Assembly (NCBI GenBank): GCA_031763025.1
Contig: JASSKH010000029.1
Coordinates: forward strand, 8,972,571-9,036,570
From: Macrocystis pyrifera
Taxonomy: Eukaryota > Sar > Phaeophyceae > Laminariales > Laminariaceae
DNA length: 64,000 bases
Direction of reading: 5' to 3'
This document shows positions 5,211-51,425 of the stretch, piece by piece (positions within the stretch are counted from its first letter, which is position 1; each line of letters starts with the position of its first letter). Both the position numbers and the translations under genes were made by a program. The notes under the pieces are model-generated. The model saw only the letters and a program-made list of their open reading frames with translations, was not told the origin of the DNA and did not search any database.

Positions 5211-6311
5211 GTATAAGAAACTAAGAAAGCACGTCAGCTGTGAGTTCAACCGATCGGCAGATCGATCGATACTCAACTTTGCAAGCTGCGTGAACCGCGC
5301 GCGTTTTCCATAATTTCCCTCGCGATTGACTACTGGCCAGAGATTCCCCTGGATGCCACCAGGGTCGACGAGACGAAAATACTTGCAGCTGGTTCGATTA
5401 CCAATTGATTTCGGCCAGTACCATTTCGCGCACTGAAACAGCAGATCGACACGTGAGGGCCGGGGTACACAAGACAGTCGAAAGTTGGTTTACAACAGTT
5501 CGCACGTGACATACACACCAAGCTACCGGAAATTTTTAATACTCCCTGTAAATGTTGCAGCAGGTCTTGACGTACAAGTACGTGTTTTTGGTGAATCTCA
5601 CTATCGTACATGTTCTTGGCCTCTTCAGCTCTTGATACATGAAAAACGCAGCAAGCACACACCTGTAAAATAGCAGAAGGCGATCCAACAGCACAGGAGG
5701 TGATGTTCGTGTTTTCTGCAGGCAGGCTAGCGAGTGGCGCATCTCGATCCCACAGCTCCTTGTTCCACGTCAGACGTTCTACCAGGCAATACGATCACGA
5801 GAGCTGGATCCCAAAGCTCGCCCTGCACACGATGCCAAGAAGATGGAAACAAAGGCTAAAACTGAACGCGAGCGTCACTCTACAGCCTCCTGTCGTGTTG
5901 ATCATTCCGAATCTCAACGACGTCCGGTCCTTGAACATGGTCCGGATCTTGATTGGAGGATTTTGTAGATCCTTGCTTGTGCATGAATGTACCTACAGTA
6001 AAGAATGATCAAGAACGTATGATTAGGATTATTTGGCATGTTGTATCTGGATTTTCATATCACAGCAGTACCATGGTACGGATCCTGCTATTGGTACATC
6101 GTTCACACCGGTATATCACGTACTGAATAGTAGTTGGTCATAAAACACCAAATTCTTGAAAGCAACTACGAGGAAGCCCGATACATGTATCTGCCCAGAG
6201 CAGAAATGATTTGTAATTTTAGCAAAAAACTTGCCAAAACTTGCCAAATACCGGTCGTTAGAAACGGCCCTAAGTTAGCAAAAAACTTGCCAAAACTTGC
6301 CAAATACCGGT
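5211..6311. other. Spacer between the arms of repeat D
   Basis: No gene is supported. It contains dispersed motif E (5230-5292, listed separately). Its right end has two tandem 54-bp units (about 6219-6319) with AACTTGCCAAAACTTGCC and CCGGTCGTTAGAA. The hAT element landed in the second of these units. Confidence 0.45.
5230..5292 (+). repeat. Dispersed motif E, copy 1
   Basis: A short repeat with ACGTCAGCTGTGAGTTC near its left end and ACTCAACTTTGCAAGCTGCG at its right end. The other copies are at 8700-8778 (reverse) and 28735-28819 (forward). Copies 1 and 2 bracket the hAT element in inverted orientation, but they are 0.2-1 kb from its ends and so are not its termini. Confidence 0.65.
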
Positions 6312-6319
6312 CGTTAGAA
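6312..6319. repeat. hAT target-site duplication, left
   Basis: CGTTAGAA, identical to 8534-8541 on the other side of the element. Confidence 0.85.
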
Positions 6320-8533
6320 TAGAGTTGCACCCCGTCTGACTGAGAACCGGGTACCCGGTGGCGGGTATCCGGAACCGTCGGAACCGGAATCGTCCCGGTC
6401 CAACTCACGGAACCGCGGGTATTTGCACCCCAGGTACCCGGGTACCCGTCAGTTGTGGTATACGGAGCGCTCAAGACCGGGGTATGGGTTGATTTATAGA
6501 ACTACTTACAGATATCTCAACCTCTGAGCGTGCTCGGTTGGTACATCCCTGGCCTCTCAGAGCTCCCACTTGGGAATCGCTTCCGTTTATTACTTGCCGG
6601 ACCGTTCCAGCGCGTCTTTGTTTTCTCCATTTCTCGTCGTACTTTCAGTCCTTCTTCCCTTTTTTCTTCTTTCGTTTCGTGTGCGTGCGTGTACTCCGAG
6701 CACGGTCGCGCGGGCGAACCCGGCACCGTCGCGGGTGTCAGCGGATGCTGGCGAGTAGAGGGGGAGTTGCAAGGAGCGCGGTCGCCGCTTTCGTGCCTAG
6801 GCGTCGCGTGTGCCTCGAGACACGAGGGATGCATCAATAGGCTCTGTCTGGCCTCCATTTGTGATTTAGGATAGAGTACGTACGAGTATTTAAGGTTCGT
6901 TCGGGATTGTAAGATAATATTCAAGTGGTGCATATTTTTGCGACCGGGCCGAGATTCACAAGAGGGAGGTACCCCGAATGAGCACCAACATTGTCGAGCT
7001 TTTGTCGAGGTCGACGGTGAGCACCGGGTTTCACGCGAGGCGGGCGACGGGGCTCACTGTGGAAGAGAGGGAGGAAGCTTTACCCGGACTGAATCGGTGG
7101 CGAGATGGTCGCGAGAGGGGCGGGCGGCGTACGAGGCTGAGAGAGAAGCTCTGCTGTAAGCTGTTTTCTTTTTTTCATTTTTATTTATTTTTGACTGGTG
7201 TAAAGTGTTCCACTCAAGTAGTAAATTATTACACGAAAGGGGACGGGGATTTTTTTTGTTTTAGATTTTTTTTCGGTTTCTTTTTCATTGTTTTTGCTGT
7301 GTTGCTGTGCCGTTCTGTGCTTTATCTTTCGTACATACGACGAGTACACAGACACAGAGCATATCGAAAGAAGAAAATAAGTACCCTACCTGGGGTATGT
7401 ACGTATGTACGACGTGTGAGCGAGCGTAGCGGAAAACCGCCCGCGACGCGAAGCATATGTGGCGTCCGAGCTGTTTTCTCCTGAAGCATGGCGGCGGGAC
7501 TCTTGGCATTATCAAGTCGCCAGTTTGCAGCTAACTACCGGGGCCATAAAAAAAACAATACTCAATCATGCACCTCTGTCCGCTTCGCATAATTTGATGT
7601 TTCCTTCCTGAGCGAGCGTAGCGGGCGGCGTAGGCCGCCCGCGGAGCGAAGCGCCTTGTATATACATACACTGATGTGCCCATAGACTCTCGTCTCTCGC
7701 CCCCTGTCTGTCGCGGAGGGATTTGTCGCTCTGCTGTAATTAACTCAGTTGATTTTAGCTACGCTCGCGAAGTACGGCGGGGCACGGTTGCCTCTCTAGG
7801 AAGCGGAGCAACCCTAGCTGCACGATCAAGCCGACTGCCAGCGCGCGCGCCGCTGGTTTTGACCATTCGATCATATAGACGTACGTTGCAACCTTGTGAA
7901 ACATGATACCAGGCGATATTGGACCCACCGCATTTTTTGCGCGCTCGCGTGAACCTTCCGCGAAACGAGTAACAACATAAAAAAAAAACAGTCAATAATA
8001 ACGACGCTCTTTTATTATTTTTCTTTGTTTCTGAATGTGGGTTGTTGTCACATGGTTTCATTGATGCAAGCTAATAAGCTTAATATATTCGAAGGATTTC
8101 CCGATGACTTGACCAGCGAAACAATGATAAGGGTAGAAAGAAAATGGCACCGATGATTGATCGCTTATGTTTCAGCTCCCCTCTCCCCAACTCTCCACTC
8201 GATCCCACACAGAATATCCCACGTGCCTTCTGCCATATTTTTTCAGCATGGTTCATCGAGAGAGACGAAATGAAGTCTTGCCCTCCCACAGCCTTACCAC
8301 GCTGCTGCTCACAGGCTAATAAAGGGGGAGTAAATGGTGTATGGTAATGCGGGTACTCGGGTACCGGTGTCCCGCTCAAAACCTAAAATGGGAGCAAAAT
8401 AGTGTCTGGTAACCCGGGTACCCGGGTACCCGTGTCCGCTGGACCCCCGGGTACCCGGTTCCGGTTCCGTCTGGAACGCCTCCCACCCGGTCGGGTACCC
8501 GGTTCCAATTTTTGAGGCCGGGGTGCAACTCTA
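6320..8533. mobile_element. hAT-superfamily non-autonomous DNA transposon (2214 bp)
   Basis: The ends are inverted repeats of 15 bp, TAGAGTTGCACCCCG on the left and its exact complement on the right. They are flanked by a perfect 8-bp target duplication, CGTTAGAA (6312-6319 and 8534-8541). An 8-bp duplication and an end beginning TAGAG are hallmarks of hAT elements. Just inside each end are clusters of GGGTACCCGG-type palindromes (6350-6450 and 8345-8510), comparable to the subterminal motifs bound by plant hAT transposases. No hAT dimerisation domain or BED finger is seen inside, so the element is probably mobilised in trans. Its middle is repeat D copy 2. The flanking tandem unit at 6257-6275 keeps the uninterrupted sequence CGTTAGAAACGGCCC, which confirms the insertion point. 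Confidence 0.85.
6498..7658 (-). repeat. Repeat D, copy 2, inside the hAT element
   Basis: A 1161-bp reverse-complement copy of 4052-5210, differing by scattered substitutions and small indels. It makes up more than half of the hAT element. Either D was inserted into or captured by the hAT element, or D is a hAT internal region of which copy 1 is a stranded piece. Copy 1 has no hAT termini beside it, which favours capture or independent insertion. Confidence 0.85.
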
Positions 8534-10646: not shown

Positions 10647-11096
10647 TGTCATAGAGTCGAGCGGTGCGCGTGTCATGCGTGATGGCGTAGTCTCGTCGGG
10701 CTTTCCGATCGATGTAGCTTATGTTCCTCACATTCCAAAGCATCATGTAGTAATTCGTTCTCAGAACAAACAGGGCCATAGGTCGGCTGGCACGCACTAA
10801 CACGCTCAAGCTCTATCCGTACATTGCAAAGACTGCCACCTGCATTCCCGTTGTTCCACCCAGCCTGCGTAACATACGCCTAAGCCATCTCCTAGTTGTC
10901 TCACTCGGTACTCTTTTGGTGTGGGGAAACACTGCCGGCAACAGGACGAGCTATAAGATGCGGAAGGGGTGGAAAAGGGTTATGACCGTCTGCTCACATC
11001 CCTACAGTCTCCGGGTTCCATTCGCATTGTTCCCTTTTCCTACATGCTGTGTCCACTTCTGGAAACCTCTGGAATCCTTGGATTACCGCCGTAACA
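10647..11096 (-). repeat. LTR of element B1 (3' LTR in element sense)
   Basis: 450 bp, TGTCA...TAACA on the plus strand. It aligns end to end with 15507-15978 and 44841-45319. Confidence 0.8.
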
Positions 11097-13540
11097 TCCT
11101 CCCCAGATGGGCTAGCCGGATAAGGCAAGCCACGTCATATCCTAAACGGTGGACCAGGGGTATTCTACGCCCGCCAAACTGTGGGAAGCAAACCCGGCTG
11201 ATGTTTTTCCGATATGAAACGCCTCCCCCCAATACGCACACTACATGCGTCGCCTTGCTCTCTTGACACGGCGTACACTGTGACGCGCCCTCTCCAACTA
11301 CGTTCCTGAATGCTCGCTTGACTCCTAAACTCACCACAGTGCCCCCAACGTGCAATACCTGTCCCACGTAACACTATCTTGCCAATCGATATGAAAGATC
11401 ACAATCGTCGCGCCAACAAGGTGAACTATAAGCAAAAAAAGACTGTCAGAGATCGCAAGGAACCCCATTCCTTCGCAAAATAGTCTCCTATTGCCCGCTA
11501 CTCCCGCCATAGATACACAGATCGCGACGGTAAATCGGGATAACAGGGGCTTTTTTATGTCTTAAACATAGCCATCATCTGGCGCCTACCAAAACAATGA
11601 ACTCCTGCAAATTCGTAGTGCTGTTGCCGAGCTAAGTGGGATAAAACTTCCAAATTTCTACTGACCTAGAACAACGACCCCCAGCGGCATCCCGCTCATC
11701 CTCCCCTGCTTAGAACAAGCGCTTCCAGAGACGTCACTCCGGATCAATAGCCCAAGTCGCTCCTCGTCCGTCAACCCCCCGAAGCCCCGAAGCCGACGCC
11801 ACCAAGACAGGTGAGTCGGCGTTGCGCGCAGCTGTACTTGAAGATGGACCCCGGACGAGCTGCTCGATCTTCAGTCGACTGTTCGAGCTGCGGTGCGAAA
11901 GATGGAGAGAAGGCGTGAAGACGCAGTCGCAGGCGCAGGCACAAAACCGCGCGCCCATACACCCAGCAACATGCCCGAGGGACGGCGAGGGAGAGGGAGA
12001 GAGAGAGAGAGAACGAGAGAGAGAACATGGGACGGATAGAAGGAGAGATCATGCGCGAGAAATGGTGCGCCCGCGGCCCCACCCTCGCCTTCCTACTCCG
12101 AATCCCCTCGTTTCTGCTGACGTCAGCTATTTCAAATCGTTACCGGCAAAGCGGCCGCGCCAATACGGTGAGTAGAGTCGTAGACCTGCCCGGGCCAACC
12201 CGTTCGCCCCTTTCCGCCCTCGACCGGTGTGATGACTTTCGCGCCGATCGCCAATTTTCTCAGCGCCTCCTTTCTACTCAGCGCGGGACGTCTTGTTGCC
12301 CCCTCTTTTCAGGCTGCGGCTCCGCTCGCTGCCCGGACCCTACAAGGTCCACCACGCGTGAAACGTGCTCCACTACAGCGGAGTGAAGCTGTCCAGTGAC
12401 TCCGCCTCCGAAACCCAGTCCGACGCCTCCTCGTCGAGGTACCCGCCGCGGTACCCCCATCTCGCGACCTCGGTAGCGCTGACCACTTTCCTCCTGTCCA
12501 GTAGCGTGTACATCGATGCTGCTGTAGTTTAGTGCCCTCCGAGCCCAAGGTCCACTCCCCACGCCGTCTGCGCGAACTCATCCTCCATGGGGTGCCGAAG
12601 ATCGGATGGCCTCGTGTACAATGGCTTCAGCGAGGTTGCCCAGCTCTCTGTCAGTCAAGCTCCCTTCTCGAGATGTCTGAAGGGAGATGGCGCTGCGGTG
12701 AGTCTGACGGATGCTGTCAACAATGGTTCCAAGTAGCGACGGCGCAGGGGGCGGGCGTGGTCTCAGCATGCGAGATTTCTGCGAGCATGGTTCGGTGGCG
12801 TGCGGCGTGATAATGACTCTCACGATAAGTTACTGGGCGGTCGAGTCGATTAAGAGTTAGGTGATCCATGTCACGAAAACTCTTGCTGCTGTAGCTTAAA
12901 TCAGACTGTAACCGCCCCTCGGCTGTCCCGGCTACGTGTTCGTGAACTCGCTAATCTAGCCATACTCACCCCGCCTCCTTTGTGCACTACCTACGCAAGG
13001 GAGCGCACGAATACGCTGTATCGGTTGCAAAATACCTACGTATGTGGACAGGATACCGACCATGATGATGTTTCGACCAACTAATAATTTCTCGACCCTG
13101 AAAGCCCATCCCTAAACCGGAGTCCATCAGCCCGCATAAGCGCGAGATAATTATAACAACACCAAAAAACTACATATGGGTCGGCACATCTGGAAGGATT
13201 TGCACATCATGAAGGTGCCGTGTTGAAAGTAGTATTAACAAGAATCGCGCGCTACAGGGGAATAATATGATTACCCCGCATTGCGCAGTTCCGGTGGGGG
13301 TGAGACAACACTGCATTGCAAAAGGTGGCTTCCACGGTTCCAAGCTGTGGCCCCAAATGGGGAGGCACAGCTGGCACGATAACACTGCAAACGGGAAATG
13401 CTGGGTGTTGGAGGAAATGTGTGCAGCGTGTGGGTACATTGTTGACATTGGGATCAGAATGTCCGCACGTTGTGACAATATTTCCGTTACACTGGGAACG
13501 GGCAATACTAGACGCCGTTAAAAAAATAGTGTAGCACGCC
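11097..13540. other. Interior of B1, first half
   Basis: The sequence is shared with 45320-49500 of element B2. It includes a short (GA)n tract at about 11995-12015. The region around 12280-12580, read on the minus strand, matches the part of B2 that lies downstream of integrase. No intact frame is supported. Confidence 0.6.
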
Positions 13541-13900
13541 GGTGCGTAGTTGAATGTTCATACAGCATGCCCTACACTTGAAGCAGTGCAGCCCTACGTG
13601 GTCGTAATTTCGTACTTTATGCCGGTGTACCTCAGAGGAGCGTACAACACTGGACGTTGCTGAAAAAATCCGCAGCATGCCGGTACCTGGTAAAGAAAAG
13701 TGAGTGACTAGATCGAACACGCGGCTAACAAGTTATCTATGAGTGAATACATCGCTGAATGTTCGTTAGCCTGCCAGTACATTGTTACCAATGCAGTACT
13801 ACGTAGCCAGTTGCTGAAATTTCGTGCAGCATGCCGGTGTATGTTAGGGAAAAGTGCAACACTGGACGTTGCGCAGCATGCCGGTAAATATCTAACTTGA
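13541..13900. repeat. Internal degenerate repeats with GCAGCATGCCGGT
   Basis: Several imperfect units of about 70-110 bp carry the word GCAGCATGCCGGT, AACACTGGACGTTG or CACACGCGGCTAA. The same block is present at 49490-49920 in B2, so it belonged to the element before the two copies diverged. Confidence 0.6.
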
Positions 13901-14043
13901 CCGCACACGCGGCTAATGAATTCTGACCACGAAAGTTGATAGAACACGCCGAGCCCTACTAATGTTGTTGTTGTACGGTCGATGCGTACATGGACAAACC
14001 CCGAACATGACTGCCTGCCTGTCTACATTACAGTCAAATTCAA

Positions 14044-14455
14044 ATCACGAAAACGAGCAAGCGACAGCAACCCGTCTTAGCAGCAGTATGATACTTACTA
14101 AGATAAGGTATCTCGCATGCTTCGGGTTCCTGTACGACTGCAAGCTATTCAGTATACGAGTGGGCATCAATCATGGATGCGAAATTTGCAGCTCGTGGAC
14201 GGGTCTAGCGACGTTATTGCGGTAGGTGACGCCGTCAGCATCATATCTTTTTCGTCTTGCGAAAACGACCAATCGACAGCGACCCGTACTTGCAGCAGCA
14301 TGATACCTACTTACTGAAATAAGATATCTCGCATGTTGCGGGTTCCTGTACGATTGCAAATCACTTAGAACACAAACGAGCACCAAGCATGGACACGAAA
14401 TATGCAGCTTGTGGACGGATCTAGGGACGTTCTTGCGGTGGTGCCGTCAGCAGCG
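14044..14455. repeat. Two tandem units of about 206 bp in B1
   Basis: Each unit contains GACAGC-ACCCGT, TATCTCGCATG, GGGTTCCTGTACGA and GTGGACGG-TCTAG. B2 carries equivalent units at about 50045-50450. Confidence 0.65.
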
Positions 14456-14639
14456 TCTCTTAATAGTCACTCCTCGTCCCCGTGCTTTCCTCTGCGGACC
14501 TGGTGAACGAACCGGCGGTACGGCCTTTCACCATTTGCTCTCACCTCCCTGCCTTTCCCCTTCTCGCCCCTGCTGGCGTACGAAAGGGGGTCAGTCTCAT
14601 GCCTCGTGCGCGAGGATTGCCGCGGGTTGCTGTTGGCTA

Positions 14640-14998
14640 GCATAATCGGTATTTCGTTGCATAGATTACTGCCATATTCCTCACGATGCCTGCATTGTTC
14701 GTGAGCGTGTGGTTCACTCCTCGGGTGCTGTTGTTTCCATATGTTTTATACCCAGTATATATAATTTAGTGTGATCCGTATGGGGGACATCATTTCATCT
14801 AGTGGTGGGGCGTCGCGAATAGGTATTTCCTTGCATAAATCGCTGTTGTATTTATTATGATACCTGTTTCATTAATGAGCGCGTGGTTCACTGCTCAGGT
14901 GCTGTCTTTTCTTTTCCATATGCTTAATGCCCGGCATATATGATTCAGTGCGATCCGTATGGGGGACAATATTTCAACTAGCTGGGCGTCGCAACTAA
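14640..14998. repeat. Two tandem units of about 178 bp in B1
   Basis: Each unit has GAGCG-GTGGTTCACT, a CGGGTGCTGT-like block and GATCCGTATGGGGGACA. B2 shows the same pair at about 50640-50957. In element sense these units lie close to the 5' LTR and may be untranslated leader. Confidence 0.65.
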
Positions 14999-15436
14999 CC
15001 CCTCCTCTCTCGCCTGAGTTTACAAAGCTCAAATGTGACGAGGGGTGGGCGCTGCGCAATAAAAAGAGACTATATGCCGCGGCAGACTGCAGGATACCTC
15101 CACCCACTAAACAGACCTGCGTTGAACACATGAAAGGAGTGTGCGGGGCCACTACACTCACGCATACCGAAGCTCACCAGAGGACTGACTCTGTTAAACG
15201 AGGCGTCAGCCACTCCCCTCGCGGGGGACGGAGTCAGCTCTCATTCATCCACACTATACCTCCCACGGCGCGCAGCCGCAAGACCCACACGGTGTCCGCC
15301 CGCGGTCATGCTTGGGGACCGTGGTTCGAACCGATCGTGATCTACCGAAGGTTCCTCAGAATTACGGACTCAGTCGTAGTGTATTGAGAGATACCAGGTA
15401 CGAGTCTACCCAGTGTAAGGAGCCATGGAGATCAAG

Positions 15437-15506
15437 GTCTAATTGGTATAGTGGTCAGTATACCACCTTGGGGCTGTGGAAACCCGAGTTCTCGGATTGA
15501 ACACCA
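15437..15506 (+). tRNA. tRNA-Pro(GGG)-like sequence forming the primer-binding region of B1 (not a normal gene)
   Basis: A cloverleaf can be drawn by eye. The acceptor is GTCTAAT/ATTGAAC (6 of 7 pairs). The D stem is GTAT/GTAT with GG in the loop, and the anticodon stem CCACC/TGTGG has 4 of 5 pairs. The loop TTGGGGC gives anticodon GGG, and the T stem CCGAG/CTCGG is perfect. It ends in an encoded CCA (15504-15506) that touches the LTR border at 15507. Read on the minus strand this is the element's primer-binding site, TGGTGTTCAATCCGAG, but the complementarity continues through the whole tRNA. The T loop is shortened to TT, lacking the nucleotides around position 58. Eukaryotic nuclear genomes normally encode neither CCA nor a GGG proline anticodon. 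The likely origin is copying of a mature tRNA by reverse transcriptase. The alternative is a decayed tRNA gene that happens to abut an LTR. Confidence 0.6.
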
Positions 15507-15978
15507 TGTCACAGAGTTGAGCGGTGCGTGTGTCATGCATATTGGGGTAGTCTCGTGGGGCTCTCCGGCCGATATAGCTTATGTTCCTCAAAATACTGCT
15601 CAGATATACTCACACTCTAAAACTCACGTATGAATTCGTTCTCAGAACAAACAGAGCCATAGGTCGTCTGGCACACATTAACACGCTCGAGCTCTATCAG
15701 TTCATTGCAAAGACTGCCACCTGCATTCCCGTTGTTCTACCCAGCCTGCGGAACACACGCCTAAGCCTTTTCCTAGTTGTCTCACTCAGTACTCTTCTAG
15801 CGTAAGGGAACACTGCCGGCAACAGGACGAACTATAAGAAACTGAAGGGGATGGAAAAGGGTTGTGACCGTCTGCTCACATCCCTAATGTCTCCGGGTTC
15901 AATTCACATTATCCCCTTTGCCTACATACCGTGTCCACTTCTGGAAACCCCTCGAATCCTCTGATTACTACCGTAACA
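15507..15978 (-). repeat. LTR of element B1 (5' LTR in element sense)
   Basis: 472 bp, TGTCA...TAACA on the plus strand. It pairs with 10647-11096. Confidence 0.8.
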
Positions 15979-19077: not shown

Positions 19078-19530
19078 TGTTACGGTTTTAGACCGTTTCA
19101 GGAGTTACGACGACTTGCGTTTTTGTATCAGCAGGGGCCGCGTCATTTACGGCCCCTCCCCCATTTGTGGATTGCCACTCTTTCTTTCTCTTCTTCGGCG
19201 GTCCTACGTGTTGCCTCGGTCATCGCTCTCGACCGGAGGCTCAAAGCAATCAGTTTACCATCTACATACCTGGGAGACCTTCTCCCTAGCGTCAGAAGCA
19301 CGCTCTACCCCTCTGGGACATGTGCGAGCCCACGTCTCGACTCGGTTGGATCGTGGCCAGACTTGAGGTTGGTCTTATTATTTGTATATTGTAGGCATGT
19401 GTTGTAATCCTGTTCTATCCTGTATCTGAAGCGGACTGTCAACGGCTGTCCTTCGAATAGGCTCATGCCCGTGCTGCTTGCCTCATCCTGACCCAAGACC
19501 TCATGACCTATACGCTCCCGATCCATAACA
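19078..19530 (+). repeat. 5' LTR of element A
   Basis: 453 bp with TGTTA/TAACA inverted ends. Near-identical to 24530-24982. Confidence 0.9.
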
Positions 19531-19547
19531 TGGTGTCCAATCCGAGA
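19531..19547 (+). promoter_or_regulatory. Primer-binding site of element A
   Basis: TGGTGTCCAATCCGAGA begins at the first base after the LTR. It complements a tRNA 3' end CTCGGATTGGACACCA, which differs by one base from the tRNA-like sequence at 15491-15506. Confidence 0.75.
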
Positions 19548-20074
19548 CACGCGCTTGCACGCACTGGGGATCGTTCTACGCATCCCACTCTGTTTTTTTT
19601 TTTTATTTGTGCGGGACCCTGAGATCTCTCTGGGTTTTATGCACACGAGGATACGTACAGCAGCAATACAGCATGCGATACTTGCTGCTGTGCTGCTGTA
19701 CTACAGCAGTATTAAAATAGCAGTCCTGCTGTTTTGTTTTTTATTTTTTTCGTTTTGCCTCGAATGTTTTCGCTTTGTTTTTCGGGGGAGGCAACGGACA
19801 CACTCAGGAGCATATAATGCCCTGGCGTGTGTCTTATCTCTTGGTTCTAACGGCTACCCTATCCAGTTCTGTTTGCCCCTTTGCACTTTGAGGTTTTGTT
19901 GGGATGGCACAGGTGGGAGTCCAAAGCTTGCAGCACACTCGTTAGGCCCCCGCCCTTTTCTTTCCACCGGCAGCGATAAAAATGAATGAAAAGCAAAAGC
20001 CCGAACGTGATGTGACCTGTGGTTTGTGCAGCGCGCCCGAGTGTGCTCGCTTTAGTGACTCCCGGGCCGGGTAT

Positions 20075-20170
20075 CCACTTGCCATCTGTCTGTCTGCGCG
20101 TCCGCTGCTGTCGCCGTACGCCACTCGTCGCTATCGCGACGCGTGGCTCTGCATTGTTGCGAACGCGGCA
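20075..20170 (+). repeat. Direct repeat in element A, copy 1
   Basis: About 95 bp, with CCGCTGCTGTCGCCGTACGC and GCGAACGCGGCA. The second copy is at 22229-22323. Confidence 0.7.
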
Positions 20171-20885
20171 CTTGCTCCACTTTCTCTGCTGTGGGCACTA
20201 CCCACAAGTGCCTGCAGCAGGATTCACGGGGAGATACCTCTTGGTCTAATGTACGATGCTTTTTACAGAGTAGTTACTCTGTACCAGGTATGCATATATT
20301 TATGTTGTACGAGCTACTACTACTGCTGTAGACCGAGGTCAGGTCTCGAAATGTTGTCGATTGCGTTCGACGTGAATATATTATCAAAGATCCAGCTCGT
20401 ACGACGTACCTTTTGGGTCGAGTTGTGACGTATCAATACGACAGAAAAATGATTACGACGTCAAGATTCTACAGATATCTGGCTTTCCAGTGGTAAAAGT
20501 GACAAGTAGGAGCGATCTACTTCGTCAAAGTTGTTGTCGTCGTTCTCACATTTAATTCATCGCCATAATTAAAAGCAATGCAGTTCGTGGTCGCAGGACA
20601 CGAGAATACCTGGTACCTCGGTAAGGCACTTGTAAATTATTTCTCAAACATGCAGCAGTATAGACCCACCAATAAGAACCTGATGGAAACAAGCTCGCTT
20701 TTTTAAGGACGCCAAGAAATTTCATCGAGATGATGCGCTCCGCGAAAAGTACGTCTTCAATAATAGTAGTATACCCGGTACCTGGTACCTGGTACGTGTT
20801 GTTTTGTCGCTGTTGGCCCTGTTTGTTTTATTATGTGTCTCCTCTTGTTTTCGCGCTATACCTTTATGCCCTCATGGTGTCAGAA

Positions 20886-21530
20886 AGGAGAGATAGGCCA
20901 GTGCCTCGTGGAAAGCGAATGGTTTCGTCAACTAAGCTTACACGGGGTCTGCGCCAGTCCTACCTGTGCTTGCATTATGATGGATGAAAAGAGATGGGCC
21001 TGTACCTCGTGGGAATGGTAGTGATGTATTTTCAGTCGTGGGAGACAACCACGAGCTTCCACGAGGTCTGCGCCTATCCTACCTATCTGGCATGCGTTTT
21101 GTTTTTATTGGAGATGGGTCTGTGCCTTGTGGGGACACGGCTATGGTCTTGAACCGAGCCTCCACAGGGTCTGTGCCTGTCGTACCTGTACCTTTATAAT
21201 ATTTTACGTCTGCGCCTATCCTACCTATCTGGCATGCGTTTTCTTTTTATTGGAGATGGGTCTGTGCCTTGTGGGGACATAATTATGGTCTTGAACCGAG
21301 CCTCCACAAGGTCTGTGCCTGTCCTACTTGCCCCTGTTGTTGAGATGGGTCTGTGCCTTGTGGGGATATGGCTATGGTCTTGAACCGAGCCTCCACAGGG
21401 TCTGCGCCTGTCCTACCTGTACCTGTTTATTATTGTATAGGAGAGACAGGTCTGTGCCTCGTGGAAGTGGTGCTGTGTCTTCACCCGTCGCGGGAGACAG
21501 AAACAAAGTTCCACGAGGTCTGCGCCTGTC
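20886..21530 (+). repeat. Array of hairpin-forming units in element A
   Basis: About six units each carry GTGCCTCGTGG or GTGCCTTGTGG and, 30-50 nt later, the complement CCACGAGG or CCACAAGG followed by TCTGYGCCT. Each unit can fold into a stem-loop. The plus-strand short frames across it repeat the same motif and are not convincing proteins. Confidence 0.65.
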
Positions 21531-21673
21531 CTACCTACACGGTCTGTTAGTATGTTCTCGACAATTTTACTTATTTTATTTTGTGGGTGTGTAGTTGCTG
21601 CGCCTATCCAGTTTATGCACTTCCCACCGGGATTATTATTGCTTGCCGATTCGTTTCTTTATTTTTGGTGCGC

Positions 21674-21866
21674 TATGCTGCTCTGCTGCTGGTTGCACTG
21701 ATTTCCCGCGTGTATCGGTGCTGATATTTGCGCTTGTCTCGATATGCTGCTCTGCTGCTGGTTGCACTGATTTCCCGCGTGTATCGGTGTTGATATTTGC
21801 GCTCATCTCGTCATGCGGCTCTGCTGCTGGTTGCACTAATTTTCCTGCTTTCATCGGTACTGATAA
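21674..21866 (+). repeat. Three tandem 69-bp units in element A
   Basis: Units start TATGCTGCTCTGCTGCTGG and include GATTTCCCGCGTGTATCGGT. The period is a multiple of three, so a 23-residue repeat (CCSAAGCTDFPRVSVLIFAL) runs in one frame; whether it is translated is unknown. Confidence 0.7.
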
Positions 21867-22228
21867 TTTCATATTTTTTATGTTCCGTCATCGCAACATG
21901 TTTCTGCAACGACGGGCGAGCGGGAGACAGGAACGGCCGCATGCGTTAATAGTTTTCCTAATTTATCTTGTGGGTGCATGCATATTGTATGGGTTTGTCT
22001 CAGCTTGGGAGGACCGTTGTTGCTGTCTCCATTAGGCAGAGAGATAGCAACAAGGTCTCTGGAATACTGAAACGTTCGGCTAATATACCCCACGGCTTCC
22101 AGCATGCTGTGCGGGCAGCTAAAGATGAACACTCTCGTATTTCCGCGTATATTCATGTGCTCACCAGCTGCTAGTTTGCCGACGTTCCCGTGTTCCACTG
22201 TCCGCGTTCTTCGTCTTATCTTGACATT

Positions 22229-22323
22229 CGCTTGCCATTTGCCTGTCTTCGTATCCGCTGCTGTCGCCGTACGCCGCTCGTCGATGTCGCGACGCGTGAC
22301 TCTACGTCGCTGCGAACGCGGCA
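22229..22323 (+). repeat. Direct repeat in element A, copy 2
   Basis: Matches 20075-20170. Confidence 0.7.
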
Positions 22324-23289
22324 TCTCTTGTTTTATGCTTGTTTGTTTTTTTCGTTTGTCTGTCTGTTTGACTGTTTGTTCATTCCTCGGATGGAGAGTG
22401 GATGTCCAGAGTGGTTGGGTCTGCGCCTATTGGGACCGTTGTTGCTGCCTCCCATGCTAAAGAGAGACGGCAACCAGGCCCCTCTAGGTCTGTGCCTTAG
22501 CCACGGGGCTTTTACCTGTTTGTCGTTCATTTTTATGTCGTTCGTCCGTTTGTTTCTTTGCTCCTCTGTTTGTTCTTGTTTGTTCTATTCGCTTTTATTG
22601 TTTGTTTGGTCGTTTGTTTTGCTTGTGTATTTGTTTCTTGCGAACCCGCTTGCCCGTGCATCCGCTCGCACTGACTGTGACCTTTACTGACACCCGCACT
22701 CCGTCGCATGTGTCCCGCAGTTTGATGCCGTCCCGTGTGCGCTGTGCGTGCGTGTCTATCGTGGTTATTTTAGTTCCTTATCACTACGTTCTTTTCTGTT
22801 CATTTTTTGGCGGGTGAAGGACACATCAAGGAAACTATTGCCCTGACATGTGTGTTATAGCCTGGACCTGACTGTTAGGCTCGCCAGTTGCCTGGACCTG
22901 ACTGTCAGGTTCTCAAGTTCTCTTTTTCTCCCGTTCGCGTCCTTTTTCGTTTCCACTCTCGTTGACGGGGGGAGGGCGACGCGTTCGTCGGAAGCCTGCA
23001 ACGGCATGAAGTCACCGAGATCAACCAAGTGGCTCAAATATCATCAACCCGGTATCCTTCACGCGAAGGCACCGGAACGATACCCATCTGGGTCAGCCTT
23101 GCCCCTGTTTCCGTTAGGCAGTAGGTGTCGCTCTATGAAAATACTTTAATGGCGATCTCAGACGGCAGAACCAGGTGTACGATTGCAGAGACCGCTACTG
23201 GCGAATACGCTACAGCAACCAGAACTGGGAGGAGCTGACCCGCTGCGAGATGGAGCAGTTGAAGAGCGGAAGCGATTATCGAGCATCAA

Positions 23290-23625
23290 GCGCAGTGGAC
23301 CGCTTCCTCGCTTCCCGTGCGCCGTTTCCTTTCTGTCTCGCTTGCCTGTACACCGTTCCCTCGCTTTTCCGCGCGCTGTTCCCTCTATACTCGGCGTACG
23401 CTATTGCCTCGCTTTCCCGTGTACCGCTCCCTTGCACCGATGTCTTGTCCGTGTGCCACTCCCTCGCTTCGACGCCGTGCGTTGTCTCGCCCCGGTGTCT
23501 TGCCCGTCCGCCGCTCGCTGCGACGCTCCCTCGCTCCGGCACCGTGCGTTCCCTCGCTCCGGTATTTCGTCCGTCCATCGCTCGCTTGCGCCCGTGCGCT
23601 GCTTTCTTGCCCCGATGCCTTGATC
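23290..23625 (+). repeat. Degenerate minisatellite in element A
   Basis: Imperfect units of roughly 25-30 bp are built on CCCTCGCTT-CCGTGCG and TTGCCCGTCCG. They sit between two related segments (about 23185-23270 and 23636-23700) that both contain an NW-EELT-like codon pattern. That pattern resembles the Y-DG-WEEL tail found at the end of some Ty3/gypsy polyproteins, and is the only hint of a coding ancestor in this element. Confidence 0.55.
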
Positions 23626-24520
23626 GTACGAGGTACTGCCCAACGACCAGAATTGGAAGGAGCTGACCAGCCGCTATACGGAGCAGTCGAAGACCTAAAG
23701 CGATACTGTGTGTTCGCCGAGGAGGCGAAGATCTTCGACTCCTGCCCTTCGTTGTTTTGTGTTTTTGTATGAAACGGTGGGGGTCCTGCCCGCAACAGCT
23801 GGTCGTTTTGGCGTGAAATTGTTAGGTATAGACTTGTGGGGTGTTGGATGTACGTTGTGACTGCGTGAATGTTTGTGTGTTTGGGTTGGGAAGAGGCGTA
23901 CTCTTCCGTGCCTGGTGGGGTTACAATTTCGTAGTTAAGTGATGTGAGGAGCAGTTCCAGACCGGCAGCGATAATGAGCGTTCGCCGAGGACACAAATAT
24001 CTCTGGTTCTGTTGTTCGAGGTTACGTGTTTTTGTGAGAGATTGAGAGGTACCTGCTTGTTACAGCCAGTCGGTCTGGCGTAGATTAGTTGGGTATTTTT
24101 GTATGGGGGTTTGCTATTCCGTGCCTGGTAGTGGGCTAACTTGTTTTGACGATTCGGCTTCCTCGTATGTTTTCATCCGATTTGGGGGACTCAAATCCCA
24201 CGGGTATTGACTTTTGGCCCGTTCAGAGAACGCAGAGATGGCGGTATAAGCTTAGGCGTTAGTGTACTGCGCTTATTCATTGTTGAAGAAGTGTGGTAGG
24301 ATGACTATAAACCATTGATTATTGGTCAGGCAGTCAAACTCGCAGTAAAAAGGCGGGGGTGAGGGTTTTTATCGGGGATTTCCCGCTGATGGCCCCTGCG
24401 TTTTCGGTTTGTTTTTGCCTATCGCCGAGATCATTATTTCTGTATAGAGCCTTGCGGTTCCTTACCCTTGGTTATAGTCAAAGATTGCCATAGCATATTG
24501 CTCAGTTATTCGCATTATGC

Positions 24521-24529
24521 TAGGGGGGA
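24521..24529 (+). promoter_or_regulatory. Polypurine tract of element A
   Basis: AGGGGGGA lies directly before the 3' LTR, the expected place for the plus-strand primer. Confidence 0.7.
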
Positions 24530-24982
24530 TGTTATGGTTTTAGACCGTTTCAGGAGTTACGACGACTTGCGTTTTTGTATCAGCAGGGGCCGCGTCATTT
24601 ACGGCCCCTCCCCCATTTGTGGATTGCCACTCTTTCTCTCTCTTCTTCGGCGGTCCTACGTGTTGCCTCGGTCATCGCTCTCGACCGGAGGCTCAAAGCA
24701 ATCAGTTTACCATCTACATACCTGGGAGACCTTCTCCCTAGCGTCAGAAGCACGCTCTACCCCTCTGGGACATGTGCGAGCCCACGTCTCGACTCGGTTG
24801 GATCGTGGCCAGACTTGAGGTTGGTCTTATTATTTGTATATTGTAGGCATGTGTTGTAATCCTGTTCTATCCTGTATCTGAAGCGGACTGTCAACGGCTG
24901 TCCTTCGAATAGGCTCATGCCCGTGCTGCTTGCCTCATCCTGACCCAAGACCTCATGACCTATACGCTCCCGATCCATAACA
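24530..24982 (+). repeat. 3' LTR of element A
   Basis: 453 bp, near-identical to 19078-19530. Confidence 0.9.
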
Positions 24983-26390: not shown

Positions 26391-26442
26391 GTTCAGACGC
26401 AAACAAAACCGATAGCGGTACAAATGAGGAGGCAAAAATATT

Positions 26443-44840: not shown

Positions 44841-45319
44841 GTGCTACTGAGTCGAGCGGTGCGCGTGTCATGCATGATGGCGTAATATTGTCTGGCTCTC
44901 CGGCCGATATAGCTCATTAGGTTCGTCGAAAAGGCTCGTCGGTTGTACTCACACTCTCAAACATCATGTATTATTTCGTTCTCAGACCAAACAGGGCCAT
45001 AGACCGTCTGTCACATATTCTCACGCACAAGCTCTTTCAGTTCATTGCAAAGACTGCCACCTGCATTCCCGTTGTTCTACAGAGCCTGCGGAACGTCCGT
45101 CTGAGCCACCTCCTTGTTGTCTCAGTCGGCACTATTCAGGTATAGGGGAAAACTGCCAGCAACAGGACGAGCTATAAGGAGCTGAAGGGGTGGAGCAGGT
45201 TGTTGTGACCGTCTGCTCACATCTCCGCAGTCTCCGAGTTTCATTCGTATTATCCCCGTTGCCTACATGCCATGCCCACTTCTGGAAACCCCTCGGATCG
45301 TTGGGTTACCACCGTAACA
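44841..45319 (-). repeat. LTR of element B2 (3' LTR in element sense)
   Basis: About 479 bp. It aligns with 10647-11096 and 15507-15978, including the GAGTCGAGCGGTGCGCGTG end and the CCGTAACA end. Confidence 0.75.
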
Positions 45320-46254
45320 TCCTCCCCAGCTGGTTTAGCCGGACAAGGCAAGCCACGTGATGTCCTAGACAGTGGACCCGAAGTATTCTATGCAAACCAA
45401 ACTGGGGGAAGAAGACCCGGCCACTTTTGTTTCTGATAGGAAATCCTTCCCCAGTACGCACACTACATGTGCCGCCTTACACACTAACGCGACGAACAGA
45501 ACGCCCCCACTACGTAACTCATCCCTTCCCGCTCACCCTGCGTACACTCTTACGCCCCCTTCAACTCCGTTTTCGGATGCTTGTTTGACCCGTAACCTCA
45601 CTACAGCTCCCCCGACGTGCGGCACTGGTACCACGTAACACTATTGTGACAATCGATCAAAAATATCACAATCGTGGCGCCTCCAAGATGAAAACTAGGC
45701 AAACACAGAAAGTCAAATGTCGCAAGGAACTCCGTTCCGTCGGACAATATTCCCTTATTGTCTCCTACTCCCGCCATAGATACACAGATCACAACGGTAA
45801 TGCGAGATGACAGATTTTTTTGGCATGACTTCAACATAGTAATCCCTTGGCGCCCACCCAAACTATGAACTCCAGCAAATTCTTAGTGCCGCCGTTGCCG
45901 AGCTAAGTGGAATAGCTTCATGCCGACCAGAGCCGCTGGCCTAGAACAATACCCCCGGCGGCATCTCGTTCATCCCCTCCAGCTTAGAACAAGCGCTTCA
46001 GGAATCGCCACCCCGGAGTAATAGCGTAAGACGCTCCTCGTCCATCAGCCCCTTCGAAGCCCCGAAGCCGACACCACCAAGACAGGTGAGCCGGAGTTGC
46101 GCGCGACCGTTCTGGAAGATGGACCCTGCTGCTCGATCTTCGGTTGGCTGTTCGAGCGGTGGCGTAAACGAAGGAGACAGGGCGCGACGAAACAGGCACG
46201 GGCGCAGGCACATAAACGCACGCCCTTACACCCAGCAGCATGCCCGAAGGACGG

Positions 46255-46268
46255 TGAGGGAGAGGGAG

Positions 46269-46318
<50 letters not shown>
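46255..46318. repeat. (GA)n microsatellite
   Basis: GAGA run of about 60 bp in the B2 interior. B1 has a shorter version near 11995-12015, so the run expanded or shrank after the copies separated. Confidence 0.85.
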
Positions 46319-46322
<4 letters not shown>

Positions 46323-46639
46323 AGAGGGGTAGAAAAGAGATCATGCGCGAAACGGCGCGCCCGCGGCCCTACCCTCGCCTTCCCACTCCGACTCGCCTCA
46401 TTTCTGATTCCTTCATCTCTTCCCAATTTTTGTCAGTGAAATGGACGCGCCAATACGGCGAGTACGGTCGTAGACCTGCCCGGGCCGCCTCTCACGCCCC
46501 TTTCCGCCCTCGACCGGCGTGATGACTGTTGTGCCGATCGTCATTTTTCTCAGCGCCTCCTTTCTACTCGGCTCGGGGCGTCATCGTGACCCCCCTTCTC
46601 AGGCTGCGGGGCGGCTCCGCTCGCCGCCCGGATCCTACA

Positions 46640-47270
46640 AGTTCCACCACGCGTGAAATGTGTCCAACTGCAGCGGAGTGAAGCTGTCCAGTGACTCCGC
46701 CTTGGAGACCCAGTCTGTCGCCTGCCTGTCGACGTACCCGCCGCGGTACCCCCATCTCGCGACACCGGTAGCGCTGACCACCCGCCTCCTGTTCAGTAGC
46801 GTGTACATTGGTGCTGCTGTAGTCAAGTGCCCTTCGAGCCCCAGGTCTGCTCCCCACGACATCTGCACGAATGCATCCTCCATCGGATGCCGAAGATCGG
46901 ACGGCCTCGTGCTGAATTGCTTCGGCGATGCCGTGGAGACCGCCCTGGAGTGCGTCGCTCTCCGCCCTCCATCTCGATGACGACGCTCAGGCCTTCAATC
47001 ACCACCTCTACCCCCGTCCACGGACCAGTCCACTTCTCCTCGACCAGTTTAGGCCCCCTATCCTGCCGGCGGAGGCTGTCGATCTCCCTCATGAGGACGA
47101 GATCACCCGTCACAACCCGGGTGCCCGTCGCGCTGAATCGATAAGCTGCGGCCTTGTCGCGCCTTCTCCCTGCCCTCGTGTATCCTCTCGAGTGCCTTCC
47201 GGACCCCTCGTCGGCTGTGCCGGCGCTCTTCGAATAAGTTCTCGAAGCCTCCCGTGGTCTCCGTGTCATC
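46640..47270 (-). pseudogene. Integrase C-terminal region of B2 (GPY/F-like, possible chromodomain-like tail)
   Basis: 46965-47120 encodes GDLVLMREID and KLVEEKWTGPWTGVEVV, the GPY/F pattern of Ty3/gypsy integrases. Just downstream (46640-46880) the residues LLNRRRVVSATGVARWGYRG and ATDW occupy the place where chromoviruses have a chromodomain. The resemblance is suggestive only. Broken. Confidence 0.5.
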
Positions 47271-47405
47271 CATCTGTGACACTAACAGGTCAAGAGATGT
47301 ACACGGGCTGCGGCCCAACAAGAGCTGGAAAGGTGTCATTGCCGAAGGCAGGGACGGGTCTGGCATTGTACGTTTGATCAAGAATGCCAAAGCTACATAT
47401 TCGTC

Positions 47406-48060
47406 CTAGCAGGTGGACCATTCCTTACACAGCTCCAACAGCACATCGACCATACATACTCCTGTATGCTCTACAGTACCCTGACCCCGTGGGCGATCGG
47501 GAGGGCCGAAATCGATCTGCACCTTTAGCCAAAGGCAGAGATGCTCTATTACGGTGGCTGTGAACTCTCTTCCTCCGTCGACACGGATGAACAAGTGCGC
47601 TCCGAACGTTAGGCATAGGTCCAGGAAAAGGCGTGCGATCCCTTAAGCCCCTTTCGAGGGGAGAAGGTATGCGAACGGGAATCGAAGTGCTTTGTCCACC
47701 ACCAGCAACAAATACTCCTTATCTGTCTCGGACGTGTTGGGGATCCCCAGCAAGTCTACCTCCAAACCTTCCCAAGGCTCTAGGTACCTGGCAGGCAGCA
47801 TACCTACACATTGGCTACGCGTTCGCTTCCTACGCTGGCACACGCACGACAAGACGTACTCCATCACGTCCGTACACATCCTTGGTCAACGGAGGCGCAG
47901 TAGTGAAAGCGTCCTGCCGACTCCTGGGCGTCCATGCTGGCAGTATACTAACGCGAGCAAGTCGGGTACCTGAACGCCTGAAACGTCTAGGACCGACGTG
48001 CGTCTTGCTAGGATCCCGCTTTGCTCTACCTCGTACCATACTAAGTGTTGATGGTCGAGG
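47406..48060 (-). pseudogene. Ty3/gypsy-type integrase zinc finger and catalytic core of B2
   Basis: The order on the minus strand is VPDLLALVYCQHGRPGVGRT (zinc-binding region), PWEGLEVDLLGIPNTSETDK with YLLLVVDK (first catalytic Asp region), DGGREFTATVIEHLCL (second Asp region) and GQGTVEHT (Glu region). This is the layout of the DD(35)E core. The parts lie in more than one frame and the region is broken. The long frame just upstream (to about 48791) is Gly/Pro/Arg-rich and unassigned. Confidence 0.65.
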
Positions 48061-49489
48061 AGATACCTCACCACCTCCTTCTCGCCCATCCGCTCTCCCC
48101 CCCTCGTCTCTACTTCACCCCCAAGTGCTTCTCTAACCTTACCGAGGACCGGGCCTTCCTTGTGGCGTCCCACCAATCCCGGAACTTCCCGCAATGCGTC
48201 GATAGCCCGCCCCACCACCGCTCGTTCTGGCGGCTGCCCACTATATGGCAACTCTTCCCCCCTCGTGGGGGGTCCACCCGAGCTACCCCAGGGTACTGCC
48301 GTGGTCATCCGACGACCCGTTCGCGACACCGCTGACGACGCCTGCTTCTCTGTACCGCCGTTTCCTCTTGAACGCTGCCCGTCCACCCCGTCCACAGCGA
48401 ATGCGCCGACGCCGTGCGGAAAGGAGGGGCCGAGGCCGCCCGAGGTGCCCGCACCGCTTGAACCACGTGATTGGGGAGCGGACGAAGCCTCACGGACGGC
48501 GCGGACGCCCGTGCCGATCACCGAATCGCCACCGCCGGCGTGGCTACCCCTACCGCGGCAAGCCCCGAAAATGATGGCAAGACTGTCGTGAAATGCGAGG
48601 GTGCCCGGCTGTCTGTCAGTCAAGCCCCCTTCTCCAGATGTCTGAAGGGAGAAGGCGCCGCGGTGACTCTGAGGGGTGTTGTCCACAACGGCTCCTAGCA
48701 GCGACGGCGCAGGGGGCGGACATGGTCTCAGCATGGGTGGTTTCTGCGAGCATGGTTCGGTGGCGTGCGGCGTGACCATGACTCTCATCATAAGGTACTG
48801 GGCGGTTGAGTCGATTAAGAGTTAGGCGATCCATGTCATGAAATTTGTTTTTGCTGTAGCTTAAATCAGAGTATAAAAGCCGCTCGGCTGTCCCGGCTTC
48901 ACCTTCTTGAACTCGGTAATATAAGCCATACTCACCACCCCCCTTTGGGCACTACCTACGCAAGGGAGAGCACGAATATACTGTACCGGTTGTAAAATAC
49001 ATGCATATGTGGACAAGATACCGAATATAACGATGTCTCGACCAACTACTATTTTCTCGACCCTGCAAGCCCACCCCTAAACCGGAGTCAATCAGCCCAC
49101 ATGAGCACGAGAAAATTATAGCAATATAAAAAACAAAATACGGGTCCGTACATGTGGAAGGATTTGCACATCATGCAGGTAACCTGTTGAAAATAGTATT
49201 GAAGGGCATCGCGCGCTACAGGGGAACAACATGATTACCGCGCACTGCGCAGTTCCGGTGGGGGTGAGGCAACACTGCGCCGCAACACGTGGTTGCGATG
49301 GTTCCAAGCTGTGGCCTCAAGTGGGGAGGGACAGCGGACGCGATAATGTTGCGAACGGGCAATGCTGGGTATTGTTGAAAATGTGTGCAGCGTGTGGTTA
49401 CATCGTGGACTTTGGGAGCAGAATGTCGTTGCGTCGTGGCAATTGTCCCGTTATACTGGGAACGGGCAATACTTAACACTGTTAAAAAA

Positions 49490-50957
49490 AATGGTGCAGC
49501 ACGCCGGTGCGTAGATGAAAGTTTGTCCAGCATGCCCGTGCAGTTGAAGCAGTGCAGCCCTACGTAGTCACAATTTCGTGCAGTATCCCGGTATAGGTCA
49601 GAGGAGCGTACAACACTGTACGTTGCTGAACAATTGCGCAGCTTGCCGGTACCTTGTGAAGAAAAGCGACCAACAAGATCGCGCACGCGGCTAACACGTT
49701 CTCCACGCGTGAGTACATCGTTGAATGTTCGTAAGCCTGCCGGTACGTTATTACCAGTGCAGCACTACGTAGCCAGTGGTTGAAACTTCGTGCAGCATGC
49801 CGGTGTACCTGGTATGTTAGAGGAAAAGTGCAACATTGGACGTGTTTGCAAAATTGCGCGGCATGCTGGTAAATATCTAATTCTGCGAAAGACTAGACCG
49901 CACACGCGGCTAACGAGTTCTCACAACGAAAGTTGATGAACCACACCGAGCCCTACTAATGCTACTGCTGTACGGTCGATGTGTACACGGACGAACTCCG
50001 AGCATGACTGACTGACTGCCTGTCTACACTACGGTCAAAATCAAATCACGAAAACGAGCAAGCGACAGCGACCAGTACTTGCAGCAATATAATGCCTACT
50101 TACTGAGACAAAGTATCTCGCATGCTGCGGGTTCCTGTACGACTGCAAGCTATTCTGTGTACGAGTGGGCATCAAGCATGGATACGAAATATGCAGATTG
50201 TGGACGGGTCTAGCGACGTTCCTGCGGTAGGTGCCGGCGTAAGCAGCGTATGTTAGTAGTCTCCCGAAAACGATTAGTCGACAGCGACCCGTACTTGCAG
50301 CAGTATGATACCTACTTGCTGAGACAGGGTAGCTCGCATGCTGCGGGTTCCTGTACGATTGCAAGCCATTCAGTATACTAGCGAACATCAGGCATGAATA
50401 CGAAATAAGCAGCTTGTGGACGGATCTACCGACGTTCGTGCGGTAGGTGGTGTCGATAGCAGCGTCTCTCAATAGTCTCTTCTCGTCCCCGTGCTTTCTT
50501 CTGCGGGCCCTCCGGTGAGCAAACCGGAGGTACGGCCTCTCACCGATTCCTCTCACCTCCCTTCCCTTCCCCTTTTCACCCCTGCTGGCGTACGAAGGGG
50601 GCCGGTCTCATGCCTCGTGCGCGAGGATTCCCTCGCGTTGTTGCTGGCCAGCGTCATAGGTATTTCGCTGCATATATTGCTGTTGTATTTCTTACGATGC
50701 CTGTAATATTATTGAGCGTGTGGTTGACTGCTCGGGTGCAGTATGTTGCTTGTGCTTTTTACGCGGTATATATGTTTTTAGTGTGAATGTATGGGGGACA
50801 TTAAATCATATAGCGGGGCGGCGCGAACAGGTACGTCGCTTCATAAGTTGATGTTAAATTCAATACGATCCCTGTGTTATTAATGAGCGTGTGGTTCACT
50901 GCTCGGGTGCTGTCTTTTCCTTATGCTATATACCCGGTATATATGACTTAGTATGAT
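49490..50957. repeat. Tandem repeat blocks of B2 shared with B1
   Basis: These contain the GCAGCATGCCGGT units, the paired 206-bp units (about 50045-50450) and the paired 178-bp units (about 50640-50957), in the same order as 13541-14998. Confidence 0.65.
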
Positions 50958-51425
50958 CAGGGTGGGGGGCTGGCCGGGGACGTGGACACTCAAGGAGACA
51001 ACCATAGCCCGGAGAAGAAGGAAATTTGCCTAAAGCAGGGTGCATGCGTCGACGGGAGCTGGGTGGTGCGTGACACCCGGTTCGTGGACCATGGGAGTCA
51101 CCTGGCAAGTAGTCATACCTACGCTCCCGCTTACCCCGAGGTATATCGACGACCGCGAGAAACCGCGTCGGTTCCACCCTGCCGAGCCACGTGCAAACAT
51201 TTGGGTATGTAACGGGATCGTACACTTCAAACACCAGTGATTTGCGTTGATGACGAGTCGTGACCCCAGGCCGGCGACCCACCCCTTTACCCCACGACCG
51301 ACGCGGCGGGTGCGACGTGATCTTCCACTCTATGGCCCGATGCTGTGCCACAGTGACGCCCGCTGGCGACCTTAGCCCATCGCGGACTGTGCGTTTCAAC
51401 AAAGTTCTTGAGGGGACGAGTGTCA
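50958..51425. other. Junction between element B2 and the copia relic
   Basis: A 166-codon minus frame (50926-51426) includes VYDPVTYPNVCTWLGRVEP and a Pro/Arg-rich end. It may be a remnant of either element; I cannot assign it. Confidence 0.3.

Follow-up and report, generated by a model that had tools for sequence, protein, structure and literature searches.

In a stretch of 64,000 nucleotides of Macrocystis pyrifera DNA (contig JASSKH010000029.1, positions 8,972,571 to 9,036,570; hereafter the window), an almost complete tRNA sequence directly abuts the border of a long terminal repeat (LTR). Such an arrangement could mark a tRNA gene beside which an element came to rest, or a copy of the tRNA that primed the element's own reverse transcription, and the second possibility raises the further question of whether such copies recur elsewhere in the genome and how they were made.

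The tRNA sequence and its LTR element

The plus-strand tRNA sequence at 15437-15506 is genuine and occupies precisely the primer-binding site of a minus-strand LTR element, here called B1 (Table 1). Its positions 15437-15503 match the Rfam tRNA family RF00005 with 34 bits and an E value of 1.4e-5, the cut-off of the family being 29 bits, and a run of ARAGORN across the window called no tRNAs. The tRNA ends in CCA (15504-15506), as an earlier note made from the sequence alone had described, and the adjoining LTR opens with TGT at 15507. B1 is placed on the minus strand by its two LTRs and by the polypurine stretch at 11097; in this orientation the tRNA complement lies exactly where a primer-binding site belongs. 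On the element strand, 15437-15506 is an over-long primer-binding site that begins as an ordinary one and continues through the complement of the whole tRNA, as the same note had proposed. The stretch lacks the properties of a tRNA gene: its T loop is 5 nt short, CCA is encoded and an LTR follows directly.

Table 1. Features of the window that bear on the tRNA copy
Feature	Position	Strand	Remarks
tRNA-His copy	15437..15506	+	tRNA positions 1-76 minus 5 nt of T loop
5' LTR of B1	15507..15978	-	starts TGT on +, ends CGTAACA; 82.9% identity to 10647-11096
3' LTR of B1	10648..11096	-	LTR comparison and edges
Polypurine stretch of B1	11097..11105	-	TGGGGAGGA (minus strand), adjoins 3' LTR
Internal region of B1	11097..15436	-	short stop-to-stop frames only; relative at 45320-50968
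Second B element	44849..50968	-	LTR (to 45319) and internal region
Young LTR element C	19078..24982	+	LTRs 99.6% identical
Ordinary primer-binding site of C	19531..19547	+	17 nt of tRNA-His; internal control

Both B1 and element C have paired LTRs with TG...CA ends. B1 has a primer-binding site beside its 5' LTR and a polypurine tract beside its 3' LTR, and C has a tRNA-His primer site and a GGGGGG run preceding its 3' LTR. The flanking 4-bp duplications of B1, C and a copy from elsewhere in the genome (L005), judged by eye, agree at three of four bases. Inspection of the frames for gag and pol found no long coding frame in B1 or C, and B1 is probably non-autonomous since its internal region contains only short stop-to-stop frames; C, young and likewise free of long frames, is LARD-like. 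The match of the second B element to B1 stops at 50968, and neither a 5' LTR nor a primer site was found for it.

The genome scanned for relatives of this arrangement was the 537-Mb assembly of 223 contigs. A search with 15400-15600 as query gave 42 matches, the window itself counted, and when the long-tract copies were aligned at the LTR edge they proved to be tRNA-His with anticodon GTG. Seven full-length tRNA-His gene-like loci lie without an LTR; all have GTG, none has an encoded CCA, six have T at position -1 and six are followed by a T-run that resembles a Pol III terminator. The gene-like loci were separated from the copies partly by their lack of CCA and of an LTR, so that the statement that genes have no CCA leans on this sorting; the T-runs are the independent sign of gene status. 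The tRNA-His gene-like loci L144 and L151 have an expanded ATA repeat in the D arm region. Judged from these sequences the primer tRNA is tRNA-His(GTG), and there is no support for tRNA-Pro. The earlier note had taken the GGG at positions 34-36 of the window copy for a proline anticodon in which inosine-34 had been read as G, and the GTG of the gene-like loci and of the other copies rules this out; genomic loci of the same tRNA do exist, as that note had thought worth checking, but with GTG and without CCA.

The window copy differs from the tRNA-His gene-like sequence by five substitutions, one of which turns GTG into GGG, and by one 5-nt deletion between TTC repeats. This deletion is absent from the other LTR-edge-aligned copies displayed, and that of L006 (the same locus as L045) is a different one. 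The T-loop gap seen in the window copy is thus real, 5 nt being missing, but it cannot be ascribed to an enzyme that skipped position 58, as was suggested at first, the loss lying between the TTC repeats. The GGG anticodon and the short T loop are therefore later mutations, the decay of an old copy, which fits an element whose LTRs differ by 17%. Of the three oddities that had been cited in favor of a mature template, this leaves the encoded CCA, which is present in the copies and missing from all seven full-length gene-like loci and on this sequence evidence supports a mature tRNA as their template. Mature tRNA-His carries a G at -1 that is added post-transcriptionally. Five of eight full-length copies (the window copy, L006 and six that were tabulated) have a G there, which is a weak and only suggestive sign of a mature tRNA, because the acceptor sequence itself has G wherever it is visible (L002, L003 and L105, and L020 as a relative of the window copy).

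Long tRNA tracts in the genome and their joints

Junctions in which at least 20 nt of tRNA are linked to an LTR number 137 when read individually, or 134 after repeats are collapsed; this count omits the window copy (L001), L006 and L131, which are additional. The tRNA piece is 20-75 nt long, the sequence at the joint is nearly always different, and the LTR starts are many and various. A 24-nt tRNA pattern occurs at 211 places with up to two mismatches (0 for the reversed control), a total that mixes two kinds of site, as the ordinary C-type sites are exactly two mismatches from the pattern; 71 exact matches and, among the matches listed, at least 29 with one mismatch were counted as read-through. 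A 25-nt pattern deeper in the tRNA has 101 matches, genes among them (control 0). The ordinary site of C with the same inner joint is found 141 times with up to three mismatches, 100 of them exact among the matches listed, and C-type LTRs with about 16 nt of tRNA occur at 119 places, 13 of the 100 listed among these being read-through copies already read. Hence the genome holds both short sites and long tRNA complements, the two kinds that the earlier note had thought to look for, and the family of C contains read-through copies as well (L091, L092, L115 and L127). In the long copies the tRNA complement runs from the CCA at the LTR edge past position 58, as it would in an extended strong-stop DNA. 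The identity of LTRs in different insertions reaches 100%, so some of the events are recent. Together the sequences support the conclusion that primer read-through and fixation took place well over a hundred times; what had been proposed for the window copy alone is borne out and appears to be general, and in the other copies the tRNA piece arrived with the element and is not the remnant of a tRNA gene already in place.

Where it can be traced, the sequence beyond the tRNA piece is element sequence, joined at varying points. L091, L092, L115 and L127 map to different positions of C with 89-99% local identity, and L002, L003, L005, L055, L069, L114 and L119 to different positions of B. The overlap of parent and tRNA at these joints is mostly 0-1 nt and reaches 3-7 nt in L003, L095, L105 and L118. 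The internal piece of L105 is inverted, as is a stretch within L092, which indicates that jumps to the opposite sense do occur. In L159 a tRNA copy of 38 nt is joined to a recognizable ordinary C site, and in L014 and L193, where the tRNA piece meets an LTR edge, the ordinary site and internal sequence lie behind it, so that not every case is a deletion. At L009 two tRNA-LTR units stand in tandem about 300 bp apart, with the first LTR cut internally; either the same jump took place twice or the unit was duplicated.

Upstream sequences of 1 kb or more were compared for 65 element-linked loci, and 50 of them have at least 100 nt in common with another locus. At 31 loci a shared stretch reaches to no more than 90 nt from the CCA end; 26 of these share it at different offsets only, and sharing at the same offset is confined to a single group of five near-identical loci (L048, L049, L050, L059 and L060). 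These five have a common 39-nt joint, lie on small contigs and differ in an A-run; they look like duplicated DNA because 1.5 kb on their LTR side, a stretch that extends past the LTR, is 99.9-100% identical. For the other 15 of the 65 loci no shared upstream sequence was found, and host flank is possible there unless they are mapped. Of 19 independent junctions that open at G40 (L091 and L126 among them), 17 have a C immediately before it, and in both of the two whose acceptor is known the acceptor supplied this C. It points to a preference for CG at the jump, and the G40/C bias is left unexplained by the read-through model that is set out below.

Six copies of the form LTR-start piece, tRNA, full LTR were found by script. 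In five of these (L007, L095, L098, L118 and L126) the LTR ends are flanked by perfect target duplications of 4 bp, and the sixth, L100, is rearranged and has none; the LTR-start pieces of L008, L014, L090 and L193 were recognized by eye and stand outside the scripted six. Duplications that enclose the whole chimaera imply that the cDNA was complete before it was integrated, and thus these tRNA-LTR chimaeras were inserted as finished cDNA.

Tract lengths and tRNA positions 58 and 37

Each joint appears to preserve the point at which the enzyme halted along the tRNA. All 71 exact sites of the 24-nt pattern were read for length, and the 68 that remain after repeats are collapsed comprise 7 tracts of 21-25 nt, 9 of 26-29, 21 of 30-33, 27 of 34-40, 2 of 41-66 and 2 of 67-75. 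When both pattern searches are used, 85 junctions have at least 34 nt, distributed as 65, 7 and 13 over 34-40, 41-66 and 67-75 nt, with a peak of 19 at length 36. The lengths thus spread over 20-40 nt and fall sharply after about 40 (G37), and a few tracts reach the tRNA 5' end; in a tract of 38 nt, C38 is the last base copied, one short of G37. The search patterns require only the T-arm side of the tRNA and so do not select against longer tracts. Owing to their deletions, the window copy was scored as 18 nt and L006 lies outside the length counts, and the set of 85 and the set of 140 used for position 58 include a few tRNA pieces with no LTR-like start after them (3 of 140).

Position A58 is mismatched in one of the 137 copies that cover it and faithful in the other 136. 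A pattern for the tRNA body occurs at 28 places genome-wide, of which 13 were set aside (six genes, two gene-like variants, four unclassified loci and one second copy in tandem). Among the 15 long copies that remain, four (L018, L095, L131 and L160) have C instead of G at position 37, against a per-position background mismatch of 3.0%. The excess at G37 has P = 0.0008 when any base is counted, 3.7e-5 when the same base is required and 0.0011 over 30 positions; the set of 15 was put together once the first copies of this kind were already known, and it includes one member (C130) assigned only by its adjacency to a C-type tRNA and LTR site. L088 was scored as a 42-nt tract that reads C at position 37, but a 38-nt tract followed by chance matches fits it equally well. 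Profile searches of the genome gave, above the cut-off, one match to the Trm5/TYW2 family, in which the Trm5 profile cannot distinguish Trm5 from TYW2, and two neighboring matches to the Trm61 family.

Origin of the long tracts

Plus-strand strong-stop DNA is made when the primer tRNA is copied after U5. The explanation that best accounts for the junctions, and one in which we place considerable confidence, is that the primer was read past A58, that copying stopped near G37, that the end jumped to another template and that the product was then integrated; the modification states, the strand identities and the order of events in this scheme we infer. The LTR retrotransposons of this genome are primed by tRNA-His, and in a normal cycle plus-strand strong-stop DNA copies 17-18 nt of the primer, halts before A58 and transfers to the primer-binding site. 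In some cycles, a minority, the tRNA that served as template probably had no methyl group at A58. The enzyme would then have read on, often as far as the base ahead of G37 (which is probably m1G37) and sometimes to the 5' end of the tRNA. An end extended in this way would be unable to prime on the 17-nt site and would jump, mostly with 0-1 nt of homology, to cDNA of the minus strand, either within the element or close to the end of U5, occasionally landing on the opposite sense. The usual product would be an LTR, a tRNA copy of 20-75 nt, a shortened internal region and a second LTR, and integrase would insert this chimaera. A counter-point is that the lengths are spread over 20-40 nt with their peak at 36, with no single sharp stop at 38; the stops at 20-35 nt would need early jumps or trimming, details that the model leaves unexplained.

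Run-off at the end of a template is typically followed by jumping with 0-1 nt of overlap. The joints described above match this behavior, which would also be expected if the primer had been a 3' half of tRNA-His of 38-40 nt, cut in the anticodon loop and copied to its end, with only the copies of 67-75 nt made from whole tRNA. The edge at 38-40 nt suits such a cut as well as it suits a block at G37, and tRNA-His 3' fragments are known in human cells, according to the accessible text of one study (PMC6675128). The many junctions of 20-35 nt, however, would require another cause, the C at G37 in 4 of 15 long copies points to a modified base in a whole tRNA, and the same text describes a human stop before G37 for which the blot showed no matching short RNA at the intensity expected (PMC6675128). 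A 3'-half primer is thus a possible but rather unlikely source of the tracts.

The long complement might instead be an adaptive, over-long primer-binding site that the elements inherit and spread, rather than the outcome of repeated accidents. Complementarity beyond the site is retained by some viruses as a primer over-extension sequence (PMC13191261, in the part available), and one joint is indeed common to five loci; yet these are the five that look like duplicated DNA, no joint is shared among the 65 loci compared outside that group, tract length and joined sequence vary, and the ordinary joint is present at 141 sites, all of which makes an inherited long site very unlikely. Joining by DNA repair or recombination after integration has still less in its favor: the short overlaps do look like end-joining, and L008, in which internal sequence follows the edge of the other LTR, could be an LTR-LTR recombinant, but genes supply no CCA and target duplications enclose the finished chimaera in five of the six testable copies. 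SINEs have a tRNA head with variable 5' truncation, and the tracts resemble them in this respect, but a tRNA gene or tRNA-derived SINE beside or inside the LTR, with ordinary insertions or 5' truncations as joints, is scarcely credible and was rejected, for the copies have the CCA that gene-like loci lack, the tRNA meets LTRs of several families precisely at the primer-binding position, and the units are bounded by 4-bp duplications at the LTR ends.

The preferred reading, read-through followed by a jump, has a close counterpart in HIV-1. There, according to the accessible part of one source, plus-strand strong-stop DNA stops before m1A58. Longer products are seen in vitro, and extension past A58 in TRMT6-mutant cells; those that end at ms2t6A37 or reach the 5' end of the tRNA are described as inactive for transfer, and tRNA-His is listed there among primers with m1A58 (PMC13191261). 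The likeness lies in a primer copied past an unmethylated A58 with stops at 37 or at the tRNA 5' end (PMC13191261), but in the present case the products have been passed on as integrated DNA, well over a hundred copies of it, derive from tRNA-His, and would have been rescued from inactivity by the proposed jump to another template. The primer over-extension sequence of lentiviruses and spumaviruses is similar in that complementarity extends beyond 18 nt next to the site; it is a functional consensus, as far as that text goes (PMC13191261), whereas here the tract is 20-75 nt and its joint differs in nearly every copy. As regards G37, yeast Trm5 methylates tRNA-His(GUG) (PMC6874348, from the portion available), and the available text on human cells reports that very many tRNA-His reads end just before G37 and that G37 and A57 (equivalent to A58) of human tRNA-His are misread by the enzyme used in that study (PMC6675128).

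If faithful copying of A58 marks unmethylated primers, if the edge at 38-39 nt and the change of G37 to C mark m1G37, and if read-through recurrently generates short non-autonomous elements, then this genome would keep a record, written in DNA, of how RNA is modified within retrotransposon particles, and the methylation state of the primer would decide between a full element and a tRNA-scarred derivative. We regard the chances for and against this broader reading as about even. The collection would in any case document in vivo, for several LTR families, at which points read-through of the primer ends and by what route its products are rescued, and it supplies a specific way in which some short non-autonomous LTR elements could have originated. 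Any genome can be scanned in the same manner. TRIM and LARD elements are non-autonomous elements with LTRs, a primer-binding site and a polypurine tract, and without long coding frames. The elements described here share with them the LTRs, primer site, polypurine tract and an internal region without long frames, but where they have been reduced the joint bears a tRNA tract, a hint at how the reduction came about.

Two other associations of tRNA with mobile elements are superficially alike. Ohshima, Okada and others are said to have traced tRNA-derived SINEs to strong-stop DNA in 1993, and in both cases a tRNA is fused to strong-stop DNA and fixed in the genome; the units found here differ from such SINEs in that they keep their LTR ends and 4-bp duplications. 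Helenus elements are non-autonomous LTR elements with a tRNA sequence, and those of animals have 4-bp duplications; in the accessible text their tRNA-like sequence lies in the LTR and an origin by SINE insertion is proposed (PMC10886601). Here, by contrast, the tRNA sequence lies inside the element at the primer site, is that of the primer itself and has CCA. A literature search whose coverage left out most subscription journals found no report of integrated primer-tRNA read-through products, and older retrovirus work on tRNA-containing defective DNA could be prior art. What appears to be new is the large inherited set with its ordinary-site controls; such products were already known in vitro from the source on HIV-1, as far as its accessible part goes (PMC13191261).

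The window contains other repeats as well. A long inverted repeat at 4052-7658 has arms of about 1.2 kb that are 94% identical and about 1.3 kb apart, a tandem duplication of about 1.09 kb (94% identity) at 428-2603 is related to 57906-58908, and arrays in which GACCCGACCCG is abundant, spaced roughly 40 nt apart, lie at 26438-28080 and 33423-33597.
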